Assembly (NCBI GenBank): GCA_000827205.1 | Contig: KN832559.1 | Location: forward strand, 1,092,692-1,156,691 | From: Plicaturopsis crispa FD-325 SS-3 | Lineage: Eukaryota > Basidiomycota > Agaricomycetes > Amylocorticiales > Amylocorticiaceae | Length of the DNA: 64,000 bases | Direction: 5' to 3' | Shown here: positions 31,007 through 51,291 of the stretch, piece by piece | Layout of the letters: each line of letters opens with the position of its first letter | Numbering within the stretch: position 1 is the first letter of the stretch | Program-made: the position numbers and the translations under genes | The notes under the pieces: model-generated | What the model was told of the DNA's origin: nothing | Databases searched by the model: none | What the model saw: only the letters and a program-made list of their open reading frames with translations

Positions 31007-32661
31007 ATGGCGTCCGCTGCGGCCTCTGGTCCATTCACCTTCAGCTCTCCTGCTGGGTATGACCTATGCCGTCAGATACTCTCCAAATCTTTGCCTTTTG
31101 ACCCACACGACTACCAGTTGGAGGGCATTTGCAAGGCTTTGGACGGTAACAATCTGGTCGCGCTTACTTCAACAGGCTCTGGAAAGTCGGGTTTTTTCTA
31201 CATGTACATGCTTGTGGTCCTCGCCATAACAAAAAATCCATCGCTCTGCCCATCTGTGAGGTTTCCTGAGGACCCTGCTATGGTAATCATATGCCCAACA
31301 AATTTTCTCGAAGAGCAGATGGTGCGACACTGCATTTCAAAGCATGTACTCAGTTCATGATTAATCCCTTCTACCAGGAGGAGAGAATGCATGCAATGGG
31401 TCTGAACGCACTCGCAATCAATGCGGTACAAATCGGCAAAGCGCAAGAACTCGGAGAAAATCTATGGGAAAAAGCTCGGGCGGGAGTGTCCATGATTCTG
31501 CTGTCCCCCGAGCAGCTTTCATCCAGCGACTTTGAACGGCTGCTCCAGGACAAAAAATTCTGGTTTCGGGTCTGTGCTATGAGTGTGGACGAGGTTCATC
31601 TGATGAATACATGGGGGAAGGGCTTCCGAAAGCATTTCCACCAAGTCGGGTTTACGAAGGAGCGTCTGCGCGAAATTGGCCTCATCGTCATGCTGGTCTC
31701 CGCCACTTTGCGATCCGGGGAGCCAATGCAGGCCGTGCTTAATTTTATGGGACTGCGCGAAGGCGGTTTCCACTTCATACGCCGGTCCAACATGCGCTAT
31801 GAGATCCAGCCGCTCTTTCGTGAACTCAAATCTGGAATACAAGGTCTCTACTTCCCAGAGCTTGCGTGGATCCTGCGCGACGGTCGGAAGACAGTCATAT
31901 TTGCCAGTACAATCAACTACGGGTTTCGACTGCAGGTCTACCTGACACGCATTGCTCCCATATCCCCTCCTACCAACATCCGCATCCGCCTCTATAACTC
32001 CTTGAACTGGGAGGATTTCAACGCCGAGTCTAAGAGACTATTCGAGGAGGATCCGCGATGCCAAATTTTGATAGCCACAAAAACTCTGTCCGTCGGCGTA
32101 GATCTGTCAAATGTCGAAGACGTTGTGAACGCAGACCTTCCGGATGACATCGACGAGTATGCGCAAATGGCCGGCCGAGCAGGACGAAACAAGAAAGTCG
32201 TCAAGGATCCACGCGTTATCACATACGTGCCACTCAACCTTGTGACAGCGCTGGCGAAGAAAGATGGTAGAGGGGTGGGGATAGCAAAGAAGAAAGCAGC
32301 GCCTGCTAAATCAACGAAAGGAAAGGAGAAGGCATCTGACCCAACAGCGAGCTTAGACCCGAGCATAGTTGCACTTATCACTGCGCAATGCAAAGTGCGG
32401 GAGCAGGAAAGACAGTATGAAAACCCGCTAAACGAGACACCCTGCCAGTGCCGCTCTTGCAAAGAGAACCCGCCTACACCACGGCCAGCATTGTGTAGCT
32501 GCAGCGGCTGCAAGCCGGAGCCACTCGACCCTCGTGACGAGACAGAAAAGGCCAAGCGTGTCACCGGCGTCACCGATGTGCCCAAGAGCAAGCGCATTAC
32601 AGGAGAAATGCGTAGCCACGCACCTGAATCAGTAGCCAAATTACAAATGATTCAGTCATGA
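31007..32661 (+). CDS. RecQ-like DEAD/DEAH helicase, C-terminus overlapping a KDZ transposon end
   Basis: ATP-dependent SF2 helicase related to RecQ. Exon 1 (31007-31321) has PHDYQLEGI, Walker A TSTGSGKS and motif Ia VIICPTNFLEEQM. A 56-nt intron (31322-31377, gtgcga...ctaccag) explains the apparent frame change. Exon 2 (31378-32661) has Walker B DEVH (SVDEVHLMNTWGKGFR), motif III VMLVSATL, motif IV TVIFASTINYGFR, motif V ATKTLSVGVDLS and motif VI QMAGRAGR. The two exons total 533 codons including the stop. A Cys-rich tail (CQCRSCK, then CSCSGCK) may bind zinc. The last 14 codons and the stop read into the terminal inverted repeat that starts at 32621, so the original C-terminus was probably replaced by transposon insertion. 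The core motifs are intact. RecQ-like copies of this kind are often multicopy in agaricomycetes (recalled, not checked). Confidence 0.8.
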
Positions 32662-32870
32662 AGCGTTGGACTCTGTGCAAAGGAACCCGCTAACATCTCA
32701 GCCACATTTTCGGCACATTGCGGCACTGCGGCAAGCTCGGCTCCCTCTCTATGCCTTTCGGGCTTTCAAAATTTTGTCCCCCTCCTCGTCAACCCCCTCG
32801 GAGTCAATCCATGCAGGTTATAAATGCACAAATCATGCAAAAATAATAATTTCACCCAAAGTATCCATAA

Positions 32871-33397
32871 TTACACAGGGATTTCGTACGCGTCCTGCAT
32901 AAATTCCTCCTCCATTGTACGGGGCCCCTCATCCACGGCCTCCTCCTCCTCCCTCTCGTCCTCTCCAATATCCTGATCGCTAGGCCTATCGCTTCGAATG
33001 TCGCTCCACATGGCACTGAACTTCGAGACAAGCCCTCGGAGCATCAGCGTCTGGGAATCGGCAAACGCCCGGGCACCCTCCGCGTCCGCACCCTCCAAAT
33101 GCCCCCCCCTTCCCTGCGCTGGGCCCACTGCTCTGCGCGGTGCTCCAGGGTGATCAAAACGCGCCGCATCTCTTCCTTTACGAGCTGCACCTCCTCATCC
33201 CACCGCCGAGCACGGGACCACGCCTTTGCCCATTCCACTCGCAGCGCATCCAGGACCTGGGCGTCATCCGCGCCGCTCCAAATCCATGACACGGTAGCCA
33301 CGCGCGCCCCCTCCCCGTGGCCGATGCGGGCTGTGTCGCTCTCCAACCGTTCCCGATCGGCTATGCCCTCTTCGCGTCGGTCCCGCGCCTCAGCCAT
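32871..33397 (-). pseudogene. KDZ transposase, C-terminal fragment (distal part)
   Basis: Minus-strand remnant with the hallmark KDZ C-terminal pattern VSWIW ... LDALRVEWAKAWSRARRWDE ... EVQLVKEEMRRVLITLEHRA, recognised from memory of Kyakuja-Dileera-Zisupton transposases. The frame shifts by one base in a run of eight C (33102-33109) and then continues as HLEGADAEGARAFADSQTLM and an acidic tail, stopping at 32871. The shift could be real decay or a homopolymer sequencing error. The residues just before (MAEARDRR) join in frame to the fragment ending at 37411 once element A and one target duplication are removed. Confidence 0.75.
33384..33391. repeat. 8-bp target-site duplication, left copy (element A)
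   Basis: CGCGCCTC, identical to 37403-37410. The two copies flank element A exactly, and a single copy restores the KDZ reading frame. Confidence 0.85.
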
Positions 33398-33553
33398 AGC
33401 TGTAAGATTATTGTCAAAGTACCAGGTAGATGTCGAAGTCCGTTATGCAAATAACCCGGATAGTCCGGCTCAGCCACAATTCCGGCCATTCGGATCCGAA
33501 CGCTGCCTTTCGGAGCTCGAAATTTTCGCGCTCCCTTGCTCAAAACAGTTCTC

Positions 33554-33704
33554 TAGCCCCTATATCTGCTACCACTGCTCGCCGGCCTTTCCTCGGGCTG
33601 CTCGGGCATTTCTAAACGGTCTATTAGCCCCTATACTCACTTTTGCGACGCGTTTCCTCCTCGGGCTGGCCGCGGATGTACCTCCACGGGTAGATTAGCC
33701 CCTA
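33554..33704. repeat. Subterminal TAGCCCCTA repeats of element A
   Basis: Three exact TAGCCCCTA copies start at 33554, 33625 and 33696, spaced 71 bp apart, with CTCGGGC(T/A) motifs between them. Element B has the same repeat near its left end. Subterminal repeats of this sort are typical transposase-binding sites in hAT/KDZ-like elements; binding here is inference. Confidence 0.75.
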
Positions 33705-34815
33705 TATCGTCTCAAAAAAATTTGCGCCTGGCTCGGGCTTACCTCGGGCACCGCGGACCCCTTCATTTCACCTCACGTTGGTCGGGCACATAATGCGCGT
33801 GTCCGACCGTGTCTACGATATTTTTTTTCGATTTTTTTCGATTTTTTTCGATTTTTGTATTTCACTGAATTTCCTACTTAGTGGGATGTGGGGGGTGGGT
33901 CTGTAATGCTGGAACTAAAAATATATTTTTTGTACTACTGGAACGAGCGCGACAGCGACGGCACAGATGCCGACGCCGTCGGCCTACATGCGTGAAGGAG
34001 CGGCGGCAGACGCGACGACGGAATAGGGACGACGAGAACGGGGCTGCCGTCGCGCAGCTCCCCGCCCTCGTCGCACCGCTGGTCCGCCTGCCGCTTGCCA
34101 TCGCGCTCCCCACGCGCTCGGGCCCCCGCCGCGCTCGGGCCCGCTGCTCCTGTCCCTGCTGCGTCCTCCTCTCCCGGGCATTGTCGTCCTGCGTCGCCGT
34201 TGCCGTCCTGCGTCGCCGTTGCGGTCTTGGGTCGCCGTTGTCGTCCTCCGCTCTGACACCCACGCGCGCCGCGCGCCATCGTCGATGCGCGCGGCCGTCG
34301 GGCGCTGCCTGTCGAGCTCGAGAGTGGGCGCGGGGTGCGCTGCTTCGGAGTAGGCGCCGCGGCGCACGCGCCGGGTGGGCACGCGTGCCCGGTGCTGCTG
34401 TATGGTGCGGGGGGTTGGGGGTCGCGTGGGCGCGCGCCGAGCCGACGCGAACGCGGACGTGCCGCATTTGCGTCGACTCAACGCGATGAGGGGTGCTGGG
34501 CGGGCGTGCACCGCCGCGTGCACGGACGGGCCTGGTTTTAGGCGGGGGTATGGGGGCTGGGGCGTTTGCGATCTGCTGGCGCTGGGTGTGGGCGCGCTGG
34601 CAGGGCGTTCGAGGGTGATGGGGAGGGCCGGCGAGGGCTCAGAGGGCGCGGGCGTGCAGGCGTCGGCGCCCGTGGTGGGCGTCGTCGCTGGGGTTGGTTG
34701 TGGAGCTGGTGCTGGTGCTGTGTGTCGTGTCGTCTGAAAAGCGTTGGTTAGCGATTGAAATAACGGTTAAAAAGTTATAAAAGGACTTACATTTAATGAA
34801 AACAAATAACAGAAT

Positions 34816-34839
34816 ACCCCCTGCAAAGTAGCAGGGGGT
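34816..34839. other. Perfect 9-bp hairpin in element A
   Basis: Arms ACCCCCTGC (34816-34824) and GCAGGGGGT (34831-34839) enclose a 6-nt loop. The hairpin sits just upstream of the block gttgcgtggaacgtcg that is shared with element B. B has a different 9-bp hairpin at the same place. Confidence 0.8.
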
Positions 34840-36917
34840 GGGTCGGCGGTGTTGCGTGGAACGTCGTTGGCGACGTGGACGACGACGAGGAGAAACAGAA
34901 TCAACAGCGACGACGCGTTGATTCTGATTTCAAACTCCGCCGGCTTTCGCCGCGGAGGCGCGCCACAGCGTCGAAATCAATTTATATGGCTTCAAATTGC
35001 AGCCTTTCAGTCTGGTAAAATTTGAGGGTGTCCAGAGACCCTACAGCACGATGTATACAAAGTTTAAAATTTTTTCACCGAGGAGATTTGAGTAAATTAG
35101 CGAAAGAGCGTCAAACTTGAGACTTTCTGCCACTTTTGAGTGAAGTTTTGGCAGATTGACTTGTACCCCCTCGTTTTTGGACTCTGAAAAAATTATATTC
35201 GGATTCAGAGACCTAAAAACCCCCTAGAACTGAATTTACGAGAGGGAGCGGGAAGGTGTGCCCATCTCAGTAGCTGAAAGGATGCTGGAAGCACCAGATT
35301 CGAGCATTTCGGTCGTTCCGGAATGCACGATTCAGGCGCAAAAACAGTCGTTTTGTGCTCTGGAGATGGGCACATCACGAATTTTTTTACAGCAAGCTCA
35401 GGGGGCATGCATTAGCATACCCTGAGCATGAATATATATTTTTTTAACGAGAAATCTTGCGAGGGGATTCATTGCGGAGCGAGGTAGTGCGTAAGCGCCC
35501 ACCATGTTGCGATAAGTTGCGATAATCTTGAATCTTTCGGTCTACTGTATTATACTCACGCAACAAAAAAAGACGAGAATATTCAGAGAGTGACTACAAG
35601 TATACGCGAGCACAATTGTATTTTTACATGAAGGAAAACGAGCTGGTATTGGTGGAGAACGAGGTCCACGACGAGCTAAGCGCCCGCGCGCCGCCGCGCG
35701 CCACCGCGCGCACGGACCAGCGGAGCTCGGAACCGTGCCCAATTGAGGAATTGGTTCGTTTTCTCTTTCTTCCCTCCCATCACCTCCCTCGTCGTCGCCC
35801 TCTCCCCCTACCGCCGTCGCCGCCGCCGCCGCCGTCGTCGTCGACGACAGACCCTGGAGCTCACGGGCCCAGGTAAGTTTTTCTTTTTTTCTTTTTTCTT
35901 CCCTTTCTCCCCGCTGCCGCGCGTCGTATGAAAGCACGACCCTGGGCAGCAGAAAGCGCGCGGCAGCGCTTTTTTTTCCATTCTCTTTCTACTGACCAGC
36001 GGCGCGCAGCGCCAGCGCAACCCCTTAACAGACCAGGACCGACGGCTGGCCAAGCTGCCAGCTCACCACCACCACCCCGACGTTGCACGACACCGCGACG
36101 CCGGTCGTCCCCACCCCACCTGCGCCGTCATCGTCACGTCGCAGGGCGACGCCATGCGTGCCCGCCAGCGCACCTCCACCACCACCACCACCGCGTCGTG
36201 CGACGCCGCGACGCACGGCCGTCCCCACCCCGCCACCACATCTCCACCACCACCACCCCACGTCGTGCGACGCCCGGCCGGCCCACCCCGCCAGCGCCGT
36301 CACCGCCACGTCGCAGGGCGACACCATGCGCGCCCGCCGGCGCATCTCCACTACCACCGCGTCGTGCGACGCCGCGACGCCTGGCCGCCCCTGCCAGCGC
36401 CGTCACGTCGCACGGCGACAACATGCGCGGCTACCAGCGCACCACCGCCACGTCGTGCAACCCCGCGACGCCCGGCCGTCCCCACCTCGCTAGCGCTGTC
36501 CCCACCCCGCCAACGCCGTGACACCAAGCGCGGCCGCCAGCGCTCGCACCACCAACGACCACCATCACGTCGTGCGGCAGCACGACGCCCACCTGTCCCC
36601 ACCCCGCTCCTCGGGCTGCGGCGGGACGCTATGACACCGCTGGCGCCGTTGTGTTACGACGGCCAGCGGAACATCACCGCCACCTCACCCAGCACACCGT
36701 GCTGCAGTAGGACGCCACGACCCCGCCAGCGCTGTCGTGCTAGCACGACGGCTAGCGCAGCGTCGGTCAGCACGCGTGCCGCGCAGCAGCGCACGCGTGG
36801 GCCTCAACCATGGAAATGGCAGCGCGCAGAGCAATAGGCTCTGTGCGCCGTCATTTTTGTGCTTTTCTTTACAGGTATATCGGCTCACGCGCCCCTGCCC
36901 CCTCCATCCTCCCCACC

Positions 36918-36956
36918 GTGACCCAACCGGGTTTTACTCCCGGTCTTCGTGGTCAC
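36918..36956 (+). ncRNA. Candidate structured-RNA segment in element A (nested stems)
   Basis: The outer stem is GTGACC (36918-36923) with GGTCAC (36951-36956). The inner stem is CCGGG (36927-36931) with CCCGG (36939-36943). Spacers are 3, 7 and 7 nt. Element B has the same geometry with a compensatory change in the outer stem. This supports conserved pairing, either as RNA or as a DNA cruciform or binding site. Transcription is not shown. Confidence 0.5.
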
Positions 36957-36998
36957 AACTGGGAGTACAAGAGGCAGGGCAGGGTAGAGTACGCTCCG

Positions 36999-37042
36999 GC
37001 CCCGCGTCGACCGTGCTAGCACGGTCGATGCGGGGCATTTTT
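36999..37042 (+). terminator. Long hairpin followed by a T tract in element A
   Basis: Near-perfect inverted repeat: GCCCCGC-g-TCGACCGTGC (from 36999) pairs with GCACGGTCGA-t-GCGGGGC (to 37036); the single g/t position can wobble. It is followed by ATTTTT. It lies 42 bp after the nested stems. Element B has a weaker GCCCGCAC / GTGCGGG pairing followed by eight T at the same place. It is reminiscent of a transcript 3' end, or of a Pol III T-tract stop, but this is inference. Confidence 0.4.
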
Positions 37043-37402
37043 ATGCTAGTTTTTTGTAGTAGTCAGTAGCTAGTAGAATAAAAATTGTTTTTTCATGAAT
37101 TTTTCGAGTGGGAGCAGGGCGTGCTGCGCGCGGCCAGTGCGTGTGGCTAAAAATAAGTTTTGTGAGCCTCGAGGCACGGTGAGCAAAGCCCCGGAGCGAT
37201 GCCGAGGGTGCGCGAGCCATCCGTAGCAAAGGTGAGCTTAGTAAGGCCAATATTCGAGGTCCGAAAGGCTGCCAGGAGGTGCCGAGGCAGGCCGGGGGCC
37301 AAATGTGGCTGAATTGTGGCTGAGGCGAAATATCCGGGTTGTTTGCATAACGGACTTCGACATGTACCTAAGGTATTTGTAAATACCCTACAGCATCAGG
37401 TG

Positions 37403-37410
37403 CGCGCCTC
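37403..37410. repeat. 8-bp target-site duplication, right copy (element A)
   Basis: CGCGCCTC, the partner of 33384-33391. Confidence 0.85.
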
Positions 37411-37862
37411 CAGACCTCGCCGACGGGCGTATTGGGCCTGTCGCTTCTGCGCACGGCGCTCGAGCTCTTCCGAATCCTCCATGCAACGACAGTCTTCCTT
37501 TTTCAGCTCCCGAAGGCCCACCGCGCTCGCATCGCCTCCTGCAAGGGAGATCTTGGCCTTTCGTGCGTCCTGATATTTGGCCGCGTGAAGCTGGATCTTG
37601 GTTTCGTTCCTCGTTATCAGCGTCCGGGTACGGATGGCCATATGCTGATGGCGTGTTTCGAATTGTTTGTATGTGAGGTAGCGGGACTTGATGTGGAGCT
37701 GCACACGGAGCCTCTCCAGCGACATCGCACACTGAGCATCGCGAAGCTTGTCCTCAATGCTACCAAGGCCCGGTGTGCACGCCTTCAAATCCTCTTGATT
37801 CAGCGCGGACGGCAGGTATAGAGGCTCGTTCTCGGGGTGCTCGGCAGCCTCCGTTCCACCTG
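37411..37862 (-). pseudogene. KDZ transposase, C-terminal fragment (proximal part)
   Basis: Minus-strand frame running out of the assembly gap: LYLPSALNQEDLKACTPGLG, then EDKLRDAQCAMSLERLRVQL, then a KYQDARKAKISLAGGDASAV segment and ELKKEDCRCMEDSEELERRA. This is the LPS...C..GL...E..LR.AQ...L..LR pattern seen just before the VSWIW segment in KDZ transposases. The open frame is uninterrupted up to the insertion point of element A. The catalytic part would lie upstream, in or beyond the gap. Confidence 0.72.
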
Positions 37863-38046
37863 NNNNNNNNNNNNNNNNNNNNNNNNNNNNNNNNNNNNNN
37901 NNNNNNNNNNNNNNNNNNNNNNNNNNNNNNNNNNNNNNNNNNNNNNNNNNNNNNNNNNNNNNNNNNNNNNNNNNNNNNNNNNNNNNNNNNNNNNNNNNNN
38001 NNNNNNNNNNNNNNNNNNNNNNNNNNNNNNNNNNNNNNNNNNNNNN
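37863..38046. other. Assembly gap (184 N)
   Basis: A run of N. It is followed by a copy of sequence already present left of the gap (37079-37402), so the gap probably reflects repeat collapse and its length is unlikely to be the true distance. Confidence 0.98.
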
Positions 38047-38369
38047 ATAAAAATTGTTTTTCATGAATTTTTCGAGTGGGAGCAGGGCGTGCTGCGCGCG
38101 GCCAGTGCGTGTGGCTAAAATAAGTTTTGTGAGCCTCGAGGCACGGTGAGCAAAGCCCCGGAGCGATGCCGAGGGTGCGCGAGCCATCCGTAGCAAAGGT
38201 GAGCTTAGTAAGGCCAATATTCGAGGTCCGAAAGGCTGCCAGGAGGTGCCGAGGCAGGCCGGGGGCCAAATGTGGCTGAATTGTGGCTGAGGCGAAATAT
38301 CCGGGTTGTTTGCATAACGGACTTCGACATGTACCTAAGGTATTTGTAAATACCCTACAGCATCAGGTG
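38047..38369. mobile_element. Second right end of an A-type element (truncated by the gap)
   Basis: About 323 bp match the right end of element A, differing in the comparison by eye only by one base in each of two homopolymers (a T run near 38058 and an A run near 38117). The element end is again CAGGTG (38364-38369), followed by cgccttcc, which belongs to the hairpin satellite. That suggests a separate insertion. The left part is missing in the gap. Confidence 0.75.
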
Positions 38370-38805
38370 CGCCTTCCTCCACACCCTCACCACCCACCAC
38401 GGACCAGCCGTCTCGCGTGCTGCGAGCCAGTGCACGCGAGACGGCGACGACAAAACGAGACGCGTCCTCACGTCTCGTCATTGTCGTTGCTTGCCCTGCC
38501 GCCCCCGCCTTCCTCCATCCTCAGCACACCACAATGGACCTGCCGTCTCGCGCGCGCGCGCGACCCTGTGCACGCGAGACAACGACAACGGGACGAGACC
38601 TGGCGTCTCGTCGTTGGCGCTCTCGCAGCCCCCCCGCCTTCCTCCACCCTCACCACCCACCACGGACCAGCCGTCTCGCGTGCTGTGAGCCGGTGCACGC
38701 GGGACGACGACGACGAGACGAGACGCCAGCCGGCGTCTCGTCATCGTCACTCCACTCACCGCCGCCGCCGTCCTTCCCACAGCGCGCCACCACGGGCCCA
38801 CTGTC
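38370..38805. repeat. Hairpin satellite, left part (about 127-135 bp units)
   Basis: Tandem units marked by ccgtctcg near 38408, 38543 and 38671 and by the variant ccactgtc at 38798 (spacings 135, 128, 127). Each unit has an inverted pair CCGTCTCGCGTG ... CACGCGAGACGG and, about 10-20 bp on, a second hairpin with arms around ACGAGACGCC / GGCGTCTCGT. CT-rich DNA containing CCACCCTCACCACCCACCAC separates units. The array continues after element B. Confidence 0.8.
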
Positions 38806-40253
38806 AGCCATTGATGTAGGATATTTACAAAAGATCTGGCAATGCAGCGTTGGGCCTTATGCAAAGGAACCCGCTAGGTTGCTTCCCTGCCAAACCGGAT
38901 CTACGGACTTTGAAATTTTGTTCAGCTGGCCGTTTCGGCGCTATTCCGCGTTCCCCAAACGGGTTTTAAGCCCCTAATGTCGAAAATGTACCCTATTAGC
39001 CCCTAAACACTTTTGCAACATCCCTCGGGCTTACACAGGATCACCTCGGATATACCGTTGCAGAACAATAGCCCCTAATTTGATTTTCCACTTTTTGTGC
39101 CTCGTTCGGGCTTGCCTCGGGCATCCCTTTGTAGCAATAGTAGCCCCTGACTTGACTTTGGATTTTTTGGCGCCTCGCTCGGGCATTCCTCGGGCATCTA
39201 CATTCTAGACTTACTATACGCGAGAATATTCTGGGCATTTTTTCCGATTTTTTTCCGATTTCTTGGTCTTACTTTTCAGCTCATGTAGGTTATGTTAGAG
39301 TAGCAAAGAAAATTTTCATTGTATTCTAATACTACTATTGAAGCACATGCACGACGCCGCAACAAGACAGAGGCAGTCGGCGTTGTTGTGGCGCGGAAGC
39401 AGGGACGAGGTACCGTGAACGGCGCGGCCGTCACTGATCTCCCCGCTGTTGACGCACTCCCGGTGCGGTCCCATGGTCATGGCACGCGCCCGCCTACTGC
39501 GAGGGTGGTGCCCTCGCAGTGCGGCATCCCTCGCGCGCCGAATTCGGGTGCTGCGCCGCCCCGACGCAAGCGGTCTGCGCCGCCGTTACCCGCGCTCGTC
39601 TCTGGCCGCCTCCTTCCAACGCCCGTGCCTGCCGCCACTGGCACCCGTACTTGGCACCCTCTCGCACGGCTGGCTGCCACTCGGAGGGCACACCTGCTCG
39701 TCGAGCTCATCCGCGTTGCGCTCGCGACGCGGCTGTGTCGTACGCCCCGCGTGCTGTCGCCTACGCGAGTACGGGAAGGGGGGCTGGCGCGCGGCAGTGC
39801 CGAGTCGATGTATCGACTCGAGCGTGCTGCGGTATGTGCGCGTGGGTGCGGGTGTCGTGCGGTAGTGCCGGGTCGATGCGGCATTGCCACGCTGACACCG
39901 ACTCGCGGATGGGATGGCTGGGCCACGGGGGCGCCGAGGGCGCGCAGCGGTGCTGTGGGTGCGCGTTGTTTGTGGGTGCTCGTGAGGGGTCGCGTTACAG
40001 ATGTTTGCGGCCGGTGCGGTTGTGCGCTGGCTGGGGTCGCGTCAACGCATGCGGGGGAGCGCAGCCACGTCTGGCGGACACGCGTGGTGTGGCTGGGTAC
40101 GGGGGTGGTGGACGCTAGTGATGGGGTGGCCTGGTGCGGTCGTGCAACGGATTGCGCGGAGGGTTGTGATCTGGGCGGTAATAAACTCGTTAGCTCTCAT
40201 ACTAGCGGTTGAAAAGTAATGAGAAGACTTACATATAGAAATGGAGAGAAAAG

Positions 40254-40289
40254 GAGCGCCCCTTCGCAATGTCATGGGATGGGGCGCTC
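40254..40289. other. Perfect 9-bp hairpin in element B
   Basis: Arms GAGCGCCCC (40254-40262) and GGGGCGCTC (40281-40289) with an 18-nt loop. It occupies the same place as the unrelated-sequence hairpin of element A. Confidence 0.8.
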
Positions 40290-42342
40290 TCGTTGCGTGG
40301 AACGTCGCAGACGACGTAGAGGACGACGAGCAACAGCAAAACCAACAGCGACGACGCGTTGGTTTTGAGTTTCAAACTCCGCCGGAAATCGCCGTGCAGG
40401 CGCTTTCCAGTGTCGTTTTCAATTTCTACGACTTCAAACGCAATCGTTTGAGCTCGAGAAAATTACGCTGGCCTCGTGAATGCCTAAGCATGCTGTAAAT
40501 AAAGTTTGAATTTTTTTGAACGAGCAGATACAAGTCAATACTCGATAAGGTGTGAAACTCGCGACTTTCAGTCACTTTACAGTGCTTTCTTCGTGAATTG
40601 AAGTGTTCCCCTTCGTTCTTTCTCAAAATAAAAATCAGAATCTTGTTCTACGACCCAAAAAAACCCCTAGCGTGATTTACGATGGGGTATGGGCGAGTGT
40701 GCCCACTGTGACTGCAGAAAACAACCCTGGAAGTGTCAGAACTGAGCATTTCGGACATTCCGCAACGCTCGATCCTGGTACTTTCAGTGTCGATCTCAAC
40801 TTCAAAAGCAGTTACATCTGTCGTATCCCTACTGCAAACCTGGGGACCATGCATTACTACATTTTCAATGTGCATATATTTTTTTCAAGCACCAAAATCG
40901 CGAGGGAAACGATAAACTTGTGAACGCAAGCCCAGGTGAGCGATGTTTGAGATAATTTGAGATAATCTATCGTGAATCGATAGATTGACTCATACTCGTC
41001 CGTTCAAAAAATCTGAAAATAATCAAGGCCTTTCTAAATGCATCCTAGAGTACGAAACAAATTTTATATCACTGAAACGAGCCACTGAGGATAGAAAACG
41101 AGGCATTCAGTCCTTGTCGAGCGCAAACGCCACAGTGCGCACGGACCGTCGGAGTTTAAAAATTTTCCAAATCGAGAAGTTGGTTGATTTTCATTCTTTG
41201 TCGCGTCCCTCCTCCCTCGCTGTCGTTGTTGCTGTCGACGACAGCAGTTGTAGCTATACCCGGGACCCAGGTGAGCCCCATGCTATAGTTTTCTGCCTTC
41301 TTTCCTGCTGCCGCGCGGGACACGATTGTTCGCTACTCTGGACTGCGAGAACGCGCGGCAGCGGCCTTGAATGTTTTTTCTATTTTTCAATCTTTGTGTG
41401 CTCCAGCTACTAACCGTCCGTGCGCTCAGGGCCAGCGGGAACCTACGGCTGAAGACTAGGGCCACCCACGACTGTGATGGCTACAACGCAGTGCAACGGA
41501 CGCGCCATGTCAACATTCAAAGCCGGTGTGCAGGCCGGCTGCAAACCACCGCCAGCGCGCAGGCCTGCTGCACCATTGCTGCCGCGGCCGCGAACGCGCA
41601 CGTCTGCTACGCCCTCCATTGTGCACGTCCACTGTGCCCCTCATCGCGCCCGTCCGCTGGGCTTTCAACCGCACACGTCTACTGCGCCCGCCCTCCATCC
41701 CGCATGTCCACCGCTGCACCCCTCATCGCGGCCGTCCGCTGGGCCCTCTACCATGCACGTCTACCGCGCACGTCCACTGCGCCACTGCGCCCTCCATCCC
41801 GCACATCCGCTGCCCCCTCCACCATGCACATCCGCTGTGCCCTTTGTTGCGGACGTCAGCTGCACAGCAACGCGGATGAGCAATGCGACTGCCACGGCCA
41901 CCAGCCTCAGTGCGTGGCCCAGATGCACGTAAGCCTGGCCTTCCTATGCAAGTCCACCTGCTGCTGCACGACGGTTGCCACTGCCGTGCACGCCAGCCAT
42001 GCGATTGCCGCCGCGGCTGTGGCAAGCGCGCGGACCTGCTCTCTTCCCTGCACCAGTGTGCCGCACTGTGCGTCAGGCTACAGTCTGCCATTGCTCCGCG
42101 CCGACCGCGTGATTCCCACCGTGGCCGCCCCAGCTCTCACGCCCACCGTGCATTAGCAACATTACCAGCGCTAGCATGGCCTCCCTGCCCTGCCCGTGTT
42201 ATCCTGCCATTGTATGATGGCCAGCTGCACGACGGTGATGGCTGTTACCAGCACCCACTCTAGCCGCTCATTGCCACCTCTGCTAGAAACTTGGTGGCAC
42301 GCCCCGCACATCTACACCCTCCCTCCCCGTCATCCTCAACCG

Positions 42343-42381
42343 TAACCCAACTGGGCATAGCTCCCGGTCTGCGTGGTTACA
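42343..42381 (+). ncRNA. Candidate structured-RNA segment in element B (nested stems)
   Basis: The outer stem is GTAACC (42343-42348) with GGTTAC (42376-42381). The inner stem is CTGGG (42352-42356) with CCCGG (42364-42368), where T pairs G. Spacers are 3, 7 and 7 nt, identical to element A. Relative to A, the third pair of the outer stem changed from G-C to A-T on both sides. Confidence 0.5.
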
Positions 42382-42806
42382 ACCGAGGGATACGGCGGCA
42401 AGGGTGAAGCCCGCACATTTCACTGCTGGATCCGGTGGCGGGTGCGGGTGCTTTTTTTTTCAATACATACACCACACACACACCCATGTAAATAGCATAG
42501 CAGTATTACAACAATTATAGATTTCGACTGCTTCTTTTCAGCCGGCATGGTGCGCGGTAGTACTAAAAATATCTTTGTGAGCCTCGAGGCACGATGAGGA
42601 CGTGCCGCACTCAAAGCCGAGAATGTGAAGTGACGGTCAGCTTGGTAGGGTCCATTTTCAATGTCCGAAGGCTTGCAGGAGATGCCGAGCCATGGCAGGG
42701 AGCCGAAATATGGCCGAGAATGTGGCTGACAGCATATCGGGATCCTTTGCATAGAGCCAAACGCTTCATTACAAGGTCTTTTGTAAATTGGCTACTGAAT
42801 CTGGTG

Positions 42807-43560
42807 CCACCGTCCCGCGCGCGCTCTGAGCCGGTGCACGCGAGACGGCGACAACGAAACGAGACGCCAGCAGGCGTCTCGTTGTCGTCGATCTCCCCCT
42901 GCCGCCGCCGCCTTCCGCCCTCCTTCACCCTCAGCAGATCACCCCGGGCCCGCCGTCTCGCGCAACCGCGGGCCCGCCGTCTCGCGCGCTGCAAGCTCGT
43001 GCACGCGAGATGACGACAACGAGACGAGACGCCTGCTGGCGTCTCGTCGTCGTTGCTTTCCCCGCCTTCCTTCAACCTCAGCACCCCCCATGCACCCGCC
43101 GTCTCGCGCAAGCTGCGAGGCCGTGGACACGAGACAACGACGACGAGACGAGACGCCAGCAGGCGTCTCGTCGTTGTCGCTTTCCCCCGCCGCCCCCGCC
43201 TTTCTCCACCCTCAGCACCCACCACAGGCCCACCGTCTCGCCGGCGCTGCGACCCTCTGCACGTGAGACGGCAACGACAAAATGAGACGCCTCCTGGCGT
43301 CTCATTGTCGTTGCTTTCCCCCTGCCGCCACCCGCTCCTGCACAATTACAACCAGGAGACCGCTCCCAGCGCACGCGAGACGACACGCCCCCACCGTCTT
43401 CCCTCCCACCGCGGTTTCGGCGCGAATCCACCCGGACCGCCACCCTCAGCGCACGACTACGGGTGCACCGTCTCGCGTGCGCGCGGCGCGCAGGACGACA
43501 ATGATGGAACGAGACGCGTGTTTCGCACTTTACACACCACGGGCTGTCGCGCCCTCCAGA
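42807..43560. repeat. Hairpin satellite, right part
   Basis: Continuation of the array split by element B. Unit marks ccgtctcg lie near 42952, 42976 (a partial short unit), 43099, 43232 and 43470. Hairpins such as GAGACGCC-AGCA-GGCGTCTC recur in most units. Units become irregular after 43330 and the array fades near 43560 into AT-rich DNA. Confidence 0.75.
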
Positions 43561-43825: not shown

Positions 43826-44300
43826 CAATGGGCTCGCACATACGAAAACGCGAACCGACGCCTCGCTGCGTGGGGGGCGGTGTATTCAGCCTACGCCCCA
43901 GGCTTGGAAATCGTCCACCGCGCTGGCAGGGTTCACTCGAACGTGGACCCCCTATCCCGACTCCCCAGATTACCCCCCTCGCACCTGGGACCGGCGAAAG
44001 ACTTCACCCCGGCAATTGTGCCAGACTCAACACTGGCCCAAGCACAGGAGGAGCAGTACCAACCTGCTCGCCGAGCCGTGTTTGTCGCTAAGACCCTGGA
44101 GGATTGCATCGAGACCCCTCGAAGCGCATTTTCAGCACCACGTACTAGAAGCTCAGCCAAGCCCGCCGAAGTGCATACTGACAGTCACGGCTCTCCTGAC
44201 TTGGCAGCTATGCCGGCATCAGACGGGGGAGGTATGGACAATCCTACCCCTCCGGACGATCAGGCGGCATCGACCCTTACCGACGGGGGGGCGACGGCGG
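43826..44300 (+). pseudogene. Ty3/Gypsy pol fragment (RNase H end and linker), inverted
   Basis: Plus-strand fragment starting inside RNase H (HSALQWARTYENANRRLAAW), then VHSNVDPLSRLPRLPPSHLG and a disordered linker. It faces the minus-strand element at 44277. The first 60 codons are a close but not identical copy of the end of that element (NAN against NSN, HRAG against HRPG), so it comes from another copy and forms an imperfect inverted repeat with it. Confidence 0.8.
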
Positions 44301-47300
44301 CGCTCGGGGCAGACGGGAAAGCGGGTCGACGTTGGAGTGCACTCGTCCTGGCCTATGGATGATTTCCAACCCCGGTGCGTACGCCGAATAGACGGCCCCC
44401 CAGGCAGCTAGCCTTCGGTTCGAATTCTCGTACGTGCGAGCCCATTGAAGGGCGGAGTGGTCTGTGACGAGTAATATTTTTTCTCCTTCGATGAAAGGCT
44501 GGAACTTTACCAGCCCTTCCTTCGCGCCTAAGGCTTCCCTTTCCGTCGTCGAGTAATTCTTCTCGGCCGCCTTGAAAGAGCGCGACCAGTACCCGATCAC
44601 TCGTTCGACGTGGACTTCCGTGTCCTCGAAGCTCGTACCCCACGCGTCTACTGGCACGTCATCCGTCTTCGAGGATAACGTGGCGACGAGCTTTGGCGGC
44701 GGTTTACCCTCGTCGAAGGCTTTCTTCAAGCGGTCGTACACTCTGGTCCCGCGAAGGTCGCGTATTGCGATCGGTTGAACCTGTTGCAGGGCGCACCCCA
44801 GCGCTTCTTGCGACGCGTCCGTGTATAGGCGGTAGGCGAGCCCTGCTATCGGGTGCCCTAGCACCGGGGCGCGTTGCAAGGCTTCTTTAGCGGCATTGAA
44901 CGCGTACTCGCAGTCCGCTGTCCATTCCCATTTCGCGTCTTTGCGTAGGCGTTGGAATAAAGGCGCGCATATACCTGCGTAGAAGGGTATAAACGCGGAA
45001 AAATAAACCACCATTCCAAGGAAGGTCTGTAGTTCGGACACTTTCCTGGGTGGCTTGAGTTCCACGATCGCTTGCACCTTTTCCAGGTGCGTCGACAGGC
45101 CTAAGCGCGACACTTTGTGACCTAAAAGGAGTATTGAGGAGTAGAACAGGTGACACTTCGTGGGGGATAGCGTGAGTCCGGCGTCCTCGATGGCGGAAAG
45201 CACTCGATCCAGGTGGTCGATGTGCTCCTCGTACGATCTAGAAAAAATTACGATATCGTCGATGTAGACCAGACAAAATAGCCATAAGTAAGGCGCCAGT
45301 ATCTGCTGCATTAGCCTTTGGAATATCGACGGCCCGTTACGCAGCCCGAAGGGCATCCGACGAAACTGGAACAGACCGCGGTGCATTCGGAAAGCTGTCT
45401 TTTCCACGTCTGAGTCCTGTATCTCGAGTTGTGTGAACCCGGTCAGAGCGTCTAAGGAGGATAGAACCTGCGCGCCAGAAAGGGTTTGCAAAATTTCTGA
45501 TTGCCTAGGGATTGGGAACTCATCTCCTATCGTCACCGCATTGAGCTTGCGATAGTCAACGCAGAACCGGGGTTTGCCGTTGCGATACGCAATGACCACA
45601 GGGGCACTCCAGGGGCTGATTGAGGGCTCGATAACACCCTGTTCAAACCATTTGTCTAGCTGTTCGTCGATTACCAAGCGCTTCACGGGAGAAGAACCGT
45701 ACATCGGGACTGCTATTGGCTGCTGGCCGTCCTCGGTCTGGATATGAACCCGGAAAGTCGGATGGTGCCCAAGTCTTCCATCAAATCCAAAGGCCTTGCT
45801 CCGATTCCGTAGCATGTCATAGGCCTTTTGCTTCAGACTCTCCGGTAGGGTGCCCACGTCAATCAGCTGTTCGAGCTCTTTCGAAGGGTACACTGTCGGG
45901 TCCGGCGCTTCCGCGGTCTTAGGCCCCCACTGGTCTTCCTCTCCCGCATTGTTCTCATGTACCACCTCGTCGTGGGGCCTCGACCTTCCCTCGCTCTCTG
46001 GCTCTGCGTTCATCGCTGTCGCCGCGGCGCTCGGCCGAGGGCTTCCCTCCTCTCTAGACGGTGTTTCGCGATCTTTCTGTGTCTGTGCGCGAAGACCGTC
46101 GAGATCCACGTCTAGGACCGTGACTATCTTCGCGGTTTGATTCAACAGCTCCTCTAGTTGCTTCAGATCGCGGGGAGTGTCGAAGAATTCCTCGGCCGGT
46201 GCGATGTAGCCGATAGGCTCTCCTTTACGGATCATGCGCGGCTGGTCGGTGGGATTAGTGATAGGGACGCACGGGTCTCTTGAAGAGAATAGCGCATTTG
46301 GAAGGGCGAAGAAGGTTTCGTCTGCATTGGCAAGTAGCGATTTTTCTAGGACCCACTCTTTCTCCTCACTAAAGTATCCTTCCAAAGCTATCACGCGGGT
46401 CGCGTGCGGGGATATCTTGTAATCCTCCGCGGCGCGCACCGTGCGTGCTTCCACGCCGAACTTTTTCACGAGTTTGTGCTTCTGGGCCTTGCGCCGGCGG
46501 TGAGCCTTAGCTTTGACGAACCTCGCCTCTTGTTCCTCATCTACCCTCTTCTGTACCTTTAGCTCGTCGAACAAACGACCTACGCCCAGGGCAGGAACGA
46601 CGTGTTTGCCACCGTCATAATGTACGTACGCGCCCGTTTCGACATTGCGCGCGATCGTTAACTCGTAGTTCAGGTGGTAGTCCTCGCCCAACAGTATTGG
46701 GACGGCCATACCGGGTACGACATACGCCTCCGCTTCCGTCTCTATTAGGATTCCGTCGATGGTCGACATGAAAATCGGGATGGTCACGTATCCCGTAATT
46801 TCGGCGCTGCGGTCCGTTAGCTGCCACAGTCTGGTCTTCATCCCTTGGCGCATGGCAGGGGGTGAAGGCAGTGAACGGTAGTATTCGAGAGAAATCAATG
46901 TAATATTTGCGCAGGAATCCAATCGTAGATCCGTCTCGGGGTTGTCTGGATTGCCTACGTGCCCGCGAGCCGACAACACCGACACTCCCGATGCTGATTT
47001 TCCGTCTGGCTTCTGGCGCTTCTTGCGTAGCTTGAGAGCTGGCGTACCTGGCGGCAGCGTAGGAGGGGGCGTCTTCGCGTCTTCGTTTCCGCCGACAGCA
47101 CAGTCGTCGGTGTCTGGGCGCCCCGGCCCACCGTTCGCGTAGTCCATTTCTTCCTGGGTCACTTCGATCCGAGTGTCCTCGATGATGTACACTCGAGCCG
47201 CCGGCGTGTCTCGAGGAGGGTCCTCCTCCTCTTCCTCCACGTCCTCGACGGTCGCGCGCCTGCTCGTAAGGGTGGTCTGGGATGCGGGCAACGCGGACGC

Positions 47301-50300
47301 CGTTACTGAGAAGGCTAAACCTATCTCATCCGGTGCCGCGTCCACGGAGCCGTCTCTAACGCACTCCGCCCGCATCGATGCCTTTCTTACTTTTGCATCG
47401 GCCGACAACCCTTCCTTAAGCTTCACTCGGTCGATGTAAATGGAAGAATGGTACTGCGTCATTAGTACCTCGTAAGCCCTGTTATATACATTGTCCTCTT
47501 CTGTAGCCTGGTCTGAACCTGTCTCGACGGAGTTTACCGTCCTCTGCCGCGCGGAGCGCCAGATGTCATAACGTGGGCACTCCCTGTCCCAATGCTTCGG
47601 GTTGCCGCACACTCGACAGGGCCCTGGCGGTGGCCTCGACATGGCGGTGTCGCCGGCTTGCATAGGGTACGGGTACTTGCCGTCCTTAGGGATGGCGCGT
47701 TGACGTCCAGCCGCTACGGCGTAAGCTTCTGAGATTATGCGGTCGTCGTTTGATTCGTCGTTAACCTCCTCGAAGCGTTCGGTGTCGTAAACCTGAGTCG
47801 CCATGGTGGAATCCTCGGCCATGTTGGCCGCTGGTAGCGCGCGCCGCAGGGTACTAAACCGTTGGATCCTCGACCCATCGGGATGGTAGCCCATTCTCTT
47901 CATGACGGCCGCGAAGTGCTTTTCAGTGACCGTGTCGGTGCGCCTTGATCCTCCGACTGCTTCGACCAACGCCTCTTGGTGTTCGGCTACGCGTAGGTGC
48001 AGGGTAGCCGTGTCTTTGATGGTTTCTGCCACAAGTAGATTGCGCCATATCACCGGGACCGCGAGGAGTACCAGTCGTACTTCGTCTTCCCCTCCTGGAG
48101 GCAACTTCGTGAGCAGCCGCGCGTGCATTATGCGCCGTATGATGAAGGCCTGCGGTGACTCTCGTTCGTGGTTTGGCTGGCGGAAATGCTGATTCGAAAA
48201 GGCGTAGTTCGCTGTCTGCAGCCAGGACGTGCCGAGCCACAAGTCCTTGATCGCCGATAGGTAGTGCACGTAGTGCCCGCGCATGTAAGCCTTTAGGCTC
48301 TGGTCTAGCATGCCGAACCAAGTTTTGATATCGCCCTCCAGTCTTTTCCACAGCCAGAAGCCGAGGCCGCCTGGTAAGTATCCTCCTAGCGCGGCGAGCT
48401 CCTGGACCTCGAAGAAATATAATACTGCGGTTTTGCCGTCGCCGTCTCAGCTCGGTAAGTCTTCGACCTTGAGCTCAGCCTTGATTGTGGGGATTGCCGT
48501 GCCATAAGGAGCAGTGGGCCAGTTGCTCCCGTAGCCGTCCCCGTAGGGATAGCCGCCTCCGGGAGGTCCTCCAGGCGGCTCCCCTCCGGGGGGCCCTCTG
48601 TAGTTGTAAGGCGGTCCAATATTCGGCGGGAGCTGTGGCCAACCACGACTAGGACCAGCTGGCGGCCCGCCGCCGTAAGGCGGTCCTCCACCACCCCCGC
48701 CACCGCTCGGCGGTCCACCTCCACCACCTCCTGGGGGTCCGTTCCCACCTGGCGGGTCTGAAGGTGGATTGCCGTCGGGAGGTCCGGCTGGCAATTGTTC
48801 GGGCCCTTCATTGCTACTTGTCGACGAGCGGGCATCTTTTCGCGCGTTGATGCTCGCTTCTGACGCAACGGCGCTTGTCGCTCGCTGCTTATAAGCCGGC
48901 GGTGCTGAGGCAAGAGGCCAAGGTTTAGCGGAGGGCGGTTGTCTGGTCGCCTCCGGTTGAACGGTGACCGTTGACGCCCCCGGGGCCGCGAGTCCGTACA
49001 GTATGTTCTGGAATTGCGACTCCACCGGCTTGGCAGCCGCTTCGAGCGAAGGCTGTGGTTGAGTAAACCACTCGTTTGCCGCTTTAAACGGGGTTTCCTG
49101 CGCCATGGAAAAGGCGTATGATTGGTAAGGAGCCGCTTGAGGGGGAATCGGCCTTGGGGACGCCACCGTCTCCGCGGGGGGATCGGGCTTTGCTACGTTC
49201 CGTGGGCCTTGTGAAACCGAGAGATTGCCCGCCGGCGGCATAAGGTGGGGCGGAACGTCATACCCGTCGAACTTAGGTGCTATCCTGGCGTCCGTCGCCG
49301 GTAAACGAGCGCGCGCAGTCGGGTCTAAGGTAGATTCCCACGTCGTTCGGCTTGACGTAGGCTGGACTTCAGGCGTCGGCTCTGGTTCCATCCTTTGCGC
49401 GCTCTTGAATACTTCACGGCTTCGGTTCGGGTTTGAGGTTCCTCTATCGTACTCGTGAGGTCGATCCGAGAAGGCGAGCGCCAGTGGTGAAGGCGGAATT
49501 ACGACGTTTCCGAGGGGACTCCCCGCTTCGAGTCTGACGCGCTGCTGCTGATTGAGCAGGGCGCTGTGGTTCGGAATTGCCGTGTAGTAGTGCCTGAGCT
49601 TGTCCTCGGTTGTCCTGTCGTCTTTCGCGAACGGGGAGTAAAGACGATGGTCTGTCGACGCCGGTGACTGAGGGGAGGAATCCCCTTTATTCTCGGCCAA
49701 GTACTTATCCACGCTCTTTTGAGCGTTCGCGATCCGAGCGACTAGAGTAGCCCAAGCCACATATAGATGCGAGATCGCCTCCGATCCCCGCAGTGTCGTC
49801 AGCAGAGTGTTGTGCGGGTCGATAATGTAGAAAGTGGATCGATTTGGCGAGAAGCCGGCTGCCAGGGTCACTACGCGTTGTAGGTCGGCAACCAGGGACG
49901 ACAGAGCGGCGTAGGCTGACTCTGTCAGTGCGTAGCGAGGGGTCGTTTCCGTATACATCACTTCCTTCAAACTGAGATCGTCGCGGTTTAACATGTCCAT
50001 GACCCGGCGAAAGATCGAGGGTTCCCCGTTGCGAGTTTCGTAAAGCAGAGCGACAACGTCCTTAATAGTTGAGTAATCGCGAGGAGGGGGAGAATTATGA
50101 GTGCGTTGCTCGTCGTTGCTGCGGCGGGATTCGTCTTTCGACGGGGTACGCCAAGGAGCGGCGCGAGGGCCCGCAGGAGGGGTGGAGGCTGGCCGATCCG
50201 TGCTCAGGATTGATCCGAATAAGACCCTCCTCTGTCCGCTCGTGATGGGAGAGGCGGGTAACGCGCGACGAGGGCGCTGCGGAGCGAGCGTAGGATCGAC

Positions 50301-50689: not shown

Positions 50690-51291
50690 TGTAACGCTCG
50701 ATACTCACGGGCGTTCGGCTTAGCGGGATAACGTTGTCGGTAGGCCCGGCGAGAATGTGAGTGAGGTCGGGGTCGTTGCCTTTGGTGTGGTTGCAGGCGT
50801 GATCGCCCGAGACGCTAAGAGGAGGAGCGCGGGGATCCTTGACTCAATCGAGGATCGGCGCTCCTCGTCGACTTGAGCTAGACCCGAGTCGACGTGCGTT
50901 CACGGCGAGCAACTGAGCGATCTGTAGATAAAGGATGGCGATGTTGATCGCCGTTTTCAATGAGTACGGGAGACTCGAGAGTAAAAGGAATAAAACCGAT
51001 GGTCCGCCTGGCGCCCTGCTCGGTGACTGCAGCACAGAGCTAGGCAAGTGTTTGTTAGGCGGTAAAAAGTAAGTTCTATTCCGCATTGCGTCGTCGTGGT
51101 CTAAGTAGGTACATGCACGTGTATGAGGGCAGGTAGATAAAGTCGTACGTCAAGTCGAGCCTTATCGGGAACGCGTGGTAAGTACTCGGCGCGCGTGCCG
51201 TCCTGCGTGTCATGAGTAAGGAAATGAAAAAGGAAAAGAAATAGGAAAGAAATAGGTATCAAGACGAGGATGCCTATATACCCGCGTTACA
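50690..51291 (-). repeat. 5' LTR of Gypsy 1 (602 bp)
   Basis: On the plus strand it begins TGTAACGCTCG and ends CCCGCGTTACA, giving the inverted TGTAACG / CGTTACA ends expected of an LTR. On the element's own strand a TATA-like GGGTATATAGG lies about 10 bp inside the LTR start. The adjacent outer 5 bp (ggtaa) would be one target duplication copy; its partner is lost. Confidence 0.8.

Follow-up and report, generated by a model that had tools for sequence, protein, structure and literature searches.

What could preserve the interior of a transposon that encodes no transposase? The question is raised by two elements of about 4 kb, A and B, that lie close together in a 64,000-nucleotide stretch of the genome of the basidiomycete Plicaturopsis crispa FD-325 SS-3 (contig KN832559.1, positions 1,092,692 to 1,156,691; hereafter the window). 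Non-autonomous DNA transposons are usually held to need only their ends. Judging from sequence comparisons, we consider it probable that A and B are old non-autonomous transposons, mobilised by KDZ transposases, and that they carry a conserved, spliced and structured non-coding RNA whose transcription we infer. New here are a KDZ-encoding partner, an argument from target site duplications (TSDs) for long-lived mobile lineages, compensatory stem-loops and an intron signature. Lineages that moved recently, and yet are unlike at as many as half of their positions, have retained a central module, splice signals and stem-loops. The old question of whether, and to what end, selection can act on the non-coding interior of a DNA transposon thereby becomes testable, and the proteins of KDZ transposons can be tried against a concrete RNA or DNA structure.

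Extent, relatives and mobility of A and B

Element A occupies positions 33391..37402 of the window (plus strand, 4012 bp) and B positions 38805..42806 (plus strand, 4002 bp). Both are complete, non-autonomous elements of one family with terminal inverted repeats (TIRs), beginning with CAGCC and finishing with GGTG. Each is flanked by a 7-bp TSD, CGCGCCT/CGCGCCT for A (33384-33390 and 37403-37409; 7/7 positions matching) and CCACTGT/CCACCGT for B (6/7). The TIR elements of 4011 and 4001 bp in the original prediction are therefore real; their left ends each fell 1 bp short, with the first C omitted. The terminal repeats of A lie at 33391..33508 (plus strand, 5'-CAGCC...) and 37285..37402 (minus strand, ending ...GGTG-3'). 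The TIRs are imperfect, A 9-118 matching A 3895-4004 (window 37285-37394, inverted) at 80% and B 12-77 matching B 3926-3991 at 79%. Subterminal repeats, also predicted, are visible at the left end of A, where three copies of the motif TAGCCCCTA lie within 33520-33720. By eye, at least one copy is present in every element of a nine-element alignment (9/9), and these candidate subterminal repeats are possibly bound by the transposase. A palindrome, GAGCCTCGAGGCA(C/T)G, is likewise conserved near the right end in 9/9 aligned elements (in A at about 37165-37180, A about 3775-3790). Across 3553 aligned columns, A and B are 52.7% identical.

Querying the genome with A and B, as the original prediction had suggested, returned many relatives: at least 83 matches for A and at least 58 for B, queries included, with 40 candidates scored for each. 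These and all other searches covered this one genome (33.2 Mb, 49 contigs). The nine-element alignment was built from the copies known at that point that had both ends and were free of Ns (lengths 3591-4017 bp). Outside it are partial or N-bearing copies (C2c, C2d, C41, C38, C1b, C17, C27, C12 and others) and elements found later (C18, C6c, C23, C13 and C2:3558302-3562117). Pairwise identity within the alignment is 49.5-83.6% over 3215-3809 columns, that is, copies differ by 16-50%. Thirteen of the 15 non-autonomous elements with both ends are 3.6-4.9 kb long, and the other two are interrupted or contain Ns. A core 16-mer from the centre, which in A reads TTTCAAACTCCGCCGG (34928..34943) and in B lies at 40370..40385 (both plus strand), occurs in a genome-wide pattern search at 75 sites (44 exact and 31 with one mismatch), as against none for the reversed pattern. 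The right-end pattern has 31 matches and its control 1. Exact cores are enriched near contig ends: 13 contigs of known length, each 0.5 Mb or longer, hold 33 of the 44, and 15 of these 33 are within 100 kb of an end, where 12% would be expected.

The TSDs are nearly perfect despite this divergence. In 16 elements with both ends (15 non-autonomous elements and the KDZ-encoding partner described below), we observed 1 mismatch in 112 positions and 15/16 perfect pairs, a rate that describes elements mapped at both ends rather than all copies. Flanks taken from different elements (240 mixed pairs) differ on average at 5.3 of 7 positions, and none differ at one position or fewer. With the single end pattern tried, no TSD was found for the palindromic elements in C7, C43, C6:887 kb and C6:1736 kb. 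Near-perfect TSDs combined with copies differing by 16-50% imply that the lineages diverged while still mobile, and most differences between copies would then predate the present insertions. Divergence at the ends also tracks that of the centre (Mantel r 0.75 and 0.87; p=0.0005, the lowest value that 2000 permutations allow; 27 of 40 arms, the sample used as well for the core and for the G.T/A.C counts below), as expected for units inherited whole.

A KDZ-encoding partner

The Pfam model of the KDZ domain (PF18758) has 43 matches in the genome, exon pieces counted. Two of these pieces lie in an 11,681-bp element on contig C10 (C10:1239872-1251552) that has CAGCC...GGTG ends, the TSD CTATGAT and a CxC2 cluster domain (PF18803). 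Its left 195 bp are 88% identical, and its right 180 bp 72% identical, to the non-autonomous element C18; its ends match C18 and C23 strongly and C9 well. The match to A- and B-type ends is weaker (0.57-0.59 of 120 bp), and the link to them runs through the family. Since this end type is shared with a KDZ-encoding element, we regard A and B as non-autonomous and KDZ-mobilised, which bears out their earlier description as a non-autonomous family. The original prediction had also stated that a relative with an intact transposase, whose decayed exons explained the conserved blocks, would tell against a constrained non-coding interior. A transposase-bearing relative exists; the explanation does not follow from it. 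At an E value of 1e-4, BLAST found only the ends (about 200 bp each) and one 30-bp motif common to the C10 partner and the interiors of non-autonomous elements, and the blocks are thus not accounted for as decayed exons. The exact core nearest to any KDZ match is 2.1 kb away, with the match lying outside the left end of the core's element. A derivation of A and B as miniature inverted-repeat elements or simple deletion derivatives was rejected, given their length of 3.6-4.9 kb and an interior unmatched in the C10 element save for the 30-bp motif.

The 30-bp motif lies in the loop of a stem-loop, HP-c, described below. Allowing up to three mismatches, it occurs at six sites in the genome (control 0): two lie upstream of the CxC2-KDZ gene in the C10 partner, and C18, C23, C34 and C19 have one each, with 0-2 mismatches. 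The last four all have the left-end pattern of the partner. The corresponding place differs from the motif at 6 of 30 positions in A, at 5 in C9 and at 4 in C1:3140 kb. By eye, one of the two copies in the partner is flanked by an inverted repeat made of different letters.

Within the KDZ superfamily, to which the ends common with a KDZ-encoding element assign the family, the closest described group is Kyakuja. Going by the available part of its description (Kojima 2025, PMC12730594), Kyakuja has 7-bp TSDs and 5'-CA..TG-3' ends, with no TIRs in the Laccaria families. The present elements resemble it in TSD length, in CA..TG ends, in coming from Agaricomycotina and in the KDZ domain of the C10 partner. 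The ends read CAGCC...GGTG, with one palindromic element having CACCT... at one end and CAGCT at the other. A and B differ from Kyakuja as described there in lacking a transposase and in having imperfect TIRs and a non-coding module. In 12 elements with both ends we found terminal inverted matches of 49-156 bp at 67-85%, and the TIR of the C10 partner is 70 bp at 76%; because of these imperfect TIRs, we call the family Kyakuja-like and do not file it as Kyakuja. The 7-bp TSD departs from the 8 bp of Zisupton and Dileera. It would be compatible with the hAT7 or P superfamilies, yet the partner encodes KDZ, and no Pfam family matches the open reading frames (ORFs) of A and B. KDZ1-3 of Cryptococcus (PMC12810828) are similar in having a KDZ transposase, a length of about 9-11 kb like that of the C10 element, and TIRs (139-241 bp), and differ in their 4-8-bp TSDs and in a CxC1 domain where the C10 partner has CxC2; that study reported finding no evidence that clearly non-autonomous copies had been mobilised. 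In a literature search covering titles and the openings of abstracts, with few subscription journals included, we recognised no description of a conserved non-coding interior in KDZ elements. A possible 20.8-kb element at C12:1009792-1030546 has B-like ends (left 89%, right about 73% to B) and could be related to a partner of B; the genome matches of the KDZ model include none on C12.

A constrained interior with splice signals and stem-loops

The original prediction held that about 4 kb of non-coding interior is conserved and under constraint. The constraint is supported for the centre; conservation across the full 4 kb is not supported. The central module of A (34741..35590, A 1351-2200) has few indels and holds a palindrome remnant centred near 35315. 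In all four independent close pairs of elements, the centre has diverged less (0.08-0.22) than the spacers (0.30-0.49). Pooled over pairs, the centre shows 44.5 substitutions per indel, against 15.7 and 12.1 for the two ends, 17.3 for the spacers and 14.9 for A 2201-2600; the contrast of centre and ends has a Fisher p=1e-4. The left spacer of A (33991..34740, A 601-1350) is GC-rich and the right spacer (35991..36890, A 2601-3500) internally repetitive; both diverge fast, with mean distances of 0.52-0.54, near the 0.57-0.60 of most shuffled arms. A constraint on spacer length was also considered and was dropped by argument alone.

In seven sister loci, the centre is a palindrome of 1.1-1.2 kb at 68-90%. 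The arms are 85% complementary over 1.1-1.2 kb in C13:971916-975782 (TSD ATATTCA) and 80% over the same length in C2:3558302-3562117 (TSD AGTGGGA), and A and B keep only a remnant. We rejected the idea that the whole element is one palindrome: complementarity is seen at the ends and in the centre and not between them, C13 with its end zone 160-700 being the exception. We also built a tree of 40 arms; the left arm of C10:693 kb, which sits on a long branch there, was dropped. Among the twelve A/B-type elements, right arms group in one cluster and left arms in two, and the left-arm cluster of C9, C18, C6:898 kb and C1:3140 kb adjoins the right arms. For every one of the eight palindromic loci, the two arms group within a single cluster.

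Alternatively, the conserved blocks could act purely as DNA, as sites that aid transposition by binding the transposase or host factors or by extruding hairpins, with no RNA involved. The arrangement of the inverted repeats is in keeping with this: facing inward, paired cores are 751-759 bp apart in 10/12 pairs (777 bp in one and 1137 bp in one). An inverted repeat, HP-b (CCCCTGC-N6-GCAGGGG; 34818..34837 in A, degenerate in B), is found in exact form at 31 places in the genome, and in 29 of these a core site lies about 100-115 bp away. Because 29/31 places stand beside a core of the A/B family, we rejected HP-b as a site for a general host factor. The loop motif held in common with a transposase-bearing element would also suit a DNA site. 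We nevertheless regard a role in DNA only as rather unlikely, in view of signals that point to transcription.

The first of these signals is an intron signature. On the minus strand just past HP-b, reading outward from the centre, 16/16 elements (partial copies included) carry GTAAG(T/C), a CTAA branch-site motif and YAG in this order, with the 5' site 131-141 bp from the core. In A, the signature spans 57 nt (34734..34790, minus strand; GTAAGT...GCTAAC...CAG) and in B 62 nt (40171..40232, minus strand). The pattern was written after the sequences had been inspected; elsewhere, it occurs once in 122,414 bases (both strands) and 0.8 times per shuffled set. The putative intron measures 55-65 nt in 14/16 elements (C1b unparsed, C41 at 31) or 47-62 nt, depending on the AG chosen. 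The right arm has a 5' splice-site candidate too, in A the GTAAGT at 35873..35878 (plus strand), which is less certain than the one on the left. There, GTRAG stands 510-557 bp from the centre in 8/12 elements and CTRAY follows HP-c in 10/12, and a right-arm intron is uncertain because such short motifs often arise by chance.

If the signature marks an intron, the spacers behind it might encode two fast-evolving proteins, with the centre as their promoter. Frames of 230-276 amino acids indeed open from within 2 nt of the 3' splice site in 10/16 elements, and the longest frame is longer on the post-intron strand than on the opposite strand in 13/16, the opposite strand being more open in 3/16. 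Moreover, the codon phase profiles of the family alignment, flat in most windows, look codon-like at A 826-1125, where one phase is less conserved than the other two. A frame-by-frame comparison of the spacers did not bear out this signal, and the left spacer has opposite-strand frames of 97-299 amino acids. The first ATG of the 230-276 amino-acid frames is often absent or far downstream, and their GC content by codon position is patternless. Close pairs give similar scores in several frames of both strands, and the best frame is usually one of the opposite strand; among distant pairs, the score never exceeds 38 bits, and the frames are inconsistent. Most gaps in the central block have lengths not divisible by three, and copies match one another at the protein level in every one of the six frames. 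Arms carry stops in all frames, and column-shuffled BLOSUM scores (25 of 40 arms) show no consistently preferred frame, all frames lying somewhat above shuffled and one minus-strand frame standing out in one window (z 4.8). Pfam gave no match for nine ORFs in A and B or for one more in between. Neither phase, gaps, six-frame matches, shuffled scores nor frames spanning the junction gave a preferred frame. We therefore rejected a coding interior, as the original prediction of no conserved frame between A and B had implied, and consider encoded spacer proteins improbable.

Could the interior then be a fossil, the decayed remains of a coding transposon whose copies resemble one another by descent only? 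Low identity between copies, stops in all frames of the arms and far-diverged spacers would fit such decay. Against it stand the near-perfect TSDs of copies that differ by 16-50%, the same modular constraint in four independent pairs, and splice signals and compensatory changes that persist, so that we judge fossils very unlikely.

The compensatory changes lie in stem-loops. A scan of the nine aligned elements found compensatory inverted repeats near A 506-662, 1788-1888, 2490-2585 and 3487-3679; around A 1388-1487, it flagged a strong hairpin. Two structures on the plus strand were followed further. HP-c (35911..35969 in A, 41305..41364 in B) has a covarying stem of 14 bp, a conserved loop and a run of T downstream. 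HP-d consists of HP-d1, with three nested helices (36910..36964 in A), and HP-d2, a GC-rich hairpin followed by a terminator-like T-run (37001..37041 in A); in B, the two together span 42334..42459. In HP-c, 92.5% of cells are paired and 9/18 pairs show two-sided changes, with 29-55% paired in slid controls; in HP-d, the values are 98.8%, 9/30 and 39.5-46.2%. None of 500 shuffles reaches the paired percentage, the two-sided counts or the covariation score of either structure, and the number of pair types is reached by 77 (HP-c) and 70 (HP-d) of the 500. Together with the lower divergence of the centre and the intron signature, these stem-loops sustain the earlier claim of a constrained interior.

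We then searched covariance models of both structures against the window and 56 loci. The HP-d model has seven held-out matches in all, six of at least 77 bits (C17, C2:519-536 kb, C23, C1:3140 kb, C18 and C6:898 kb) and a weak one in C43 (31 bits). The HP-c model exceeds 30 bits in the held-out elements of HP-d and in C2:3600 kb, C6:887 kb and C12; 22 of its 47 rows are at or below 25 bits and were not taken singly, the C10 partner among them. HP-c occurs twice in tandem in C18 and C23 (L077:1356-1436 and 1443-1524; L076:1329-1409 and 1417-1497). The inner part of HP-d1 has 24 copies in the genome within one mismatch (control 0), and 20/24 of these lie 407-507 bp from a listed right end. A run of 5-10 T follows HP-d2 in 10/10 elements where it was located (14 tried). 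HP-d has G.T in 12 plus-strand pairs and A.C in none, as expected of a plus-strand RNA. In the window segment 32500-43500 and four loci, Rfam 15 gave no match above the gathering score, only sub-threshold microRNA models.

Taken together, the intron signature, the T-runs and the G.T bias of HP-d point to transcription, and the stem letters of HP-c change while pairing is kept, which a protein reading sequence would not need. Several observations weigh against a conserved, spliced and structured RNA in KDZ-mobilised elements. Each covariation test rests on nine sequences, the shuffles ignore their relatedness, and the structures were predicted from the very alignments tested, a bias in their favour. 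They were also predicted on the plus strand, so that G.T was favoured there, and G.T versus A.C counts indicate no strand for HP-c (4 vs 3) or HP-b (2 vs 3), as would suit DNA sites. The frames that open at the 3' splice site count on this side as well. Among eight palindromic loci, some of them partial, HP-d was found in 1/8 and HP-c above 30 bits in 2/8, and the strict intron pattern is present in 4/8 left and 1/8 right arms. As for the partner, the C10 element reaches no more than 19.1 and 14.6 bits with the HP-c model, the HP-c link rests on the 30-bp motif, and that motif, at up to three mismatches, is present in only 4/9 other loci with the partner's left-end pattern. Genome pattern searches listed neither the core, the HP-d patterns nor an exact HP-b in the C10 partner, and its transposase thus seems not to need them. 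Finally, described Kyakuja families are without TIRs, whereas the A/B family has imperfect ones.

A possible mode of action, and the surroundings of A and B

A/B-type elements might work as follows. The KDZ transposase of larger partners such as the C10 element would act in trans, cutting and pasting the elements by their ends. Transcription would run outward from the central palindrome, acting as a bidirectional promoter region. On the left, the minus-strand RNA would be spliced; on the right, the plus-strand RNA would carry HP-c and HP-d and end at or near the T-run of HP-d2. Probably, neither would be translated. Our guess is that the folded RNA, or its DNA, could offer a handle to the KDZ partner's proteins, because no internal sequence other than the HP-c loop motif was found in common between the partner and the non-autonomous elements, and because four elements with left ends of the partner's type carry it exactly or nearly so. 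That the KDZ machinery recognises the HP-c fold, that transposon RNA takes part in transposition, and that lineages survive via RNA rather than protein is speculation that we hold to be unlikely.

Other systems resemble this family in part. Non-autonomous copies of maize Mu share only their ends with the autonomous element, and their interiors are unrelated and often consist of captured gene pieces; the A/B family, by contrast, keeps one interior even between lineages in which as many as half of the bases differ. The TSD of Galileo, like that of the A/B family, is 7 bp. Short interspersed nuclear elements (SINEs) with a highly conserved domain have a retrotransposon origin and are much shorter than A and B, and they are not known to have a central palindrome or intron signature. 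Like A and B, they are non-autonomous with a conserved piece, and one such piece, the V domain, was spread by the DNA transposon MER6 (PMC6887750). Galileo and Foldback of Drosophila (PMC2775673 and PMC3573991), similarly, have long inverted repeats in a DNA transposon. They differ in a P-superfamily transposase, as opposed to the KDZ partner here, and in a palindrome that is terminal rather than central.

Element A itself sits in the remains of another transposon. Two minus-strand fragments flank it, the 3' end of a KDZ-type transposon (32621..33395, 66% to the C10 element) and a second piece of the same 3' part past A (37402..37841, 69%), and they match adjoining parts of the C10 element; hence, A was inserted into the 3' portion of a KDZ-type element. 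In the PF18758 search of the genome, the window contains no KDZ domain. A helicase frame (Helicase_C; 31270-32658) adjoins the KDZ-type fragment that holds A. A direct repeat (37078-37416 and 38047-38385, 98% identical) duplicates the right end of A about 970 bp downstream, and this second copy of the right end, at 38369, has no left partner. B is flanked by GC-rich tandem repeats of about 133 bp (38370-38805 and 42807-43335) and seems to have been inserted into this array.

Farther away, ARAGORN found no transfer RNA genes in the window. Frames of long terminal repeat (LTR)-type retrotransposons at 44277-48446, 51210-52118 and 52119-54581 include reverse transcriptase and RNase H domains (in two) and an integrase (in one), and the former two are 71% identical across 1.66 kb. 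A minus-strand frame at 16038-18332 matches a protein kinase domain.

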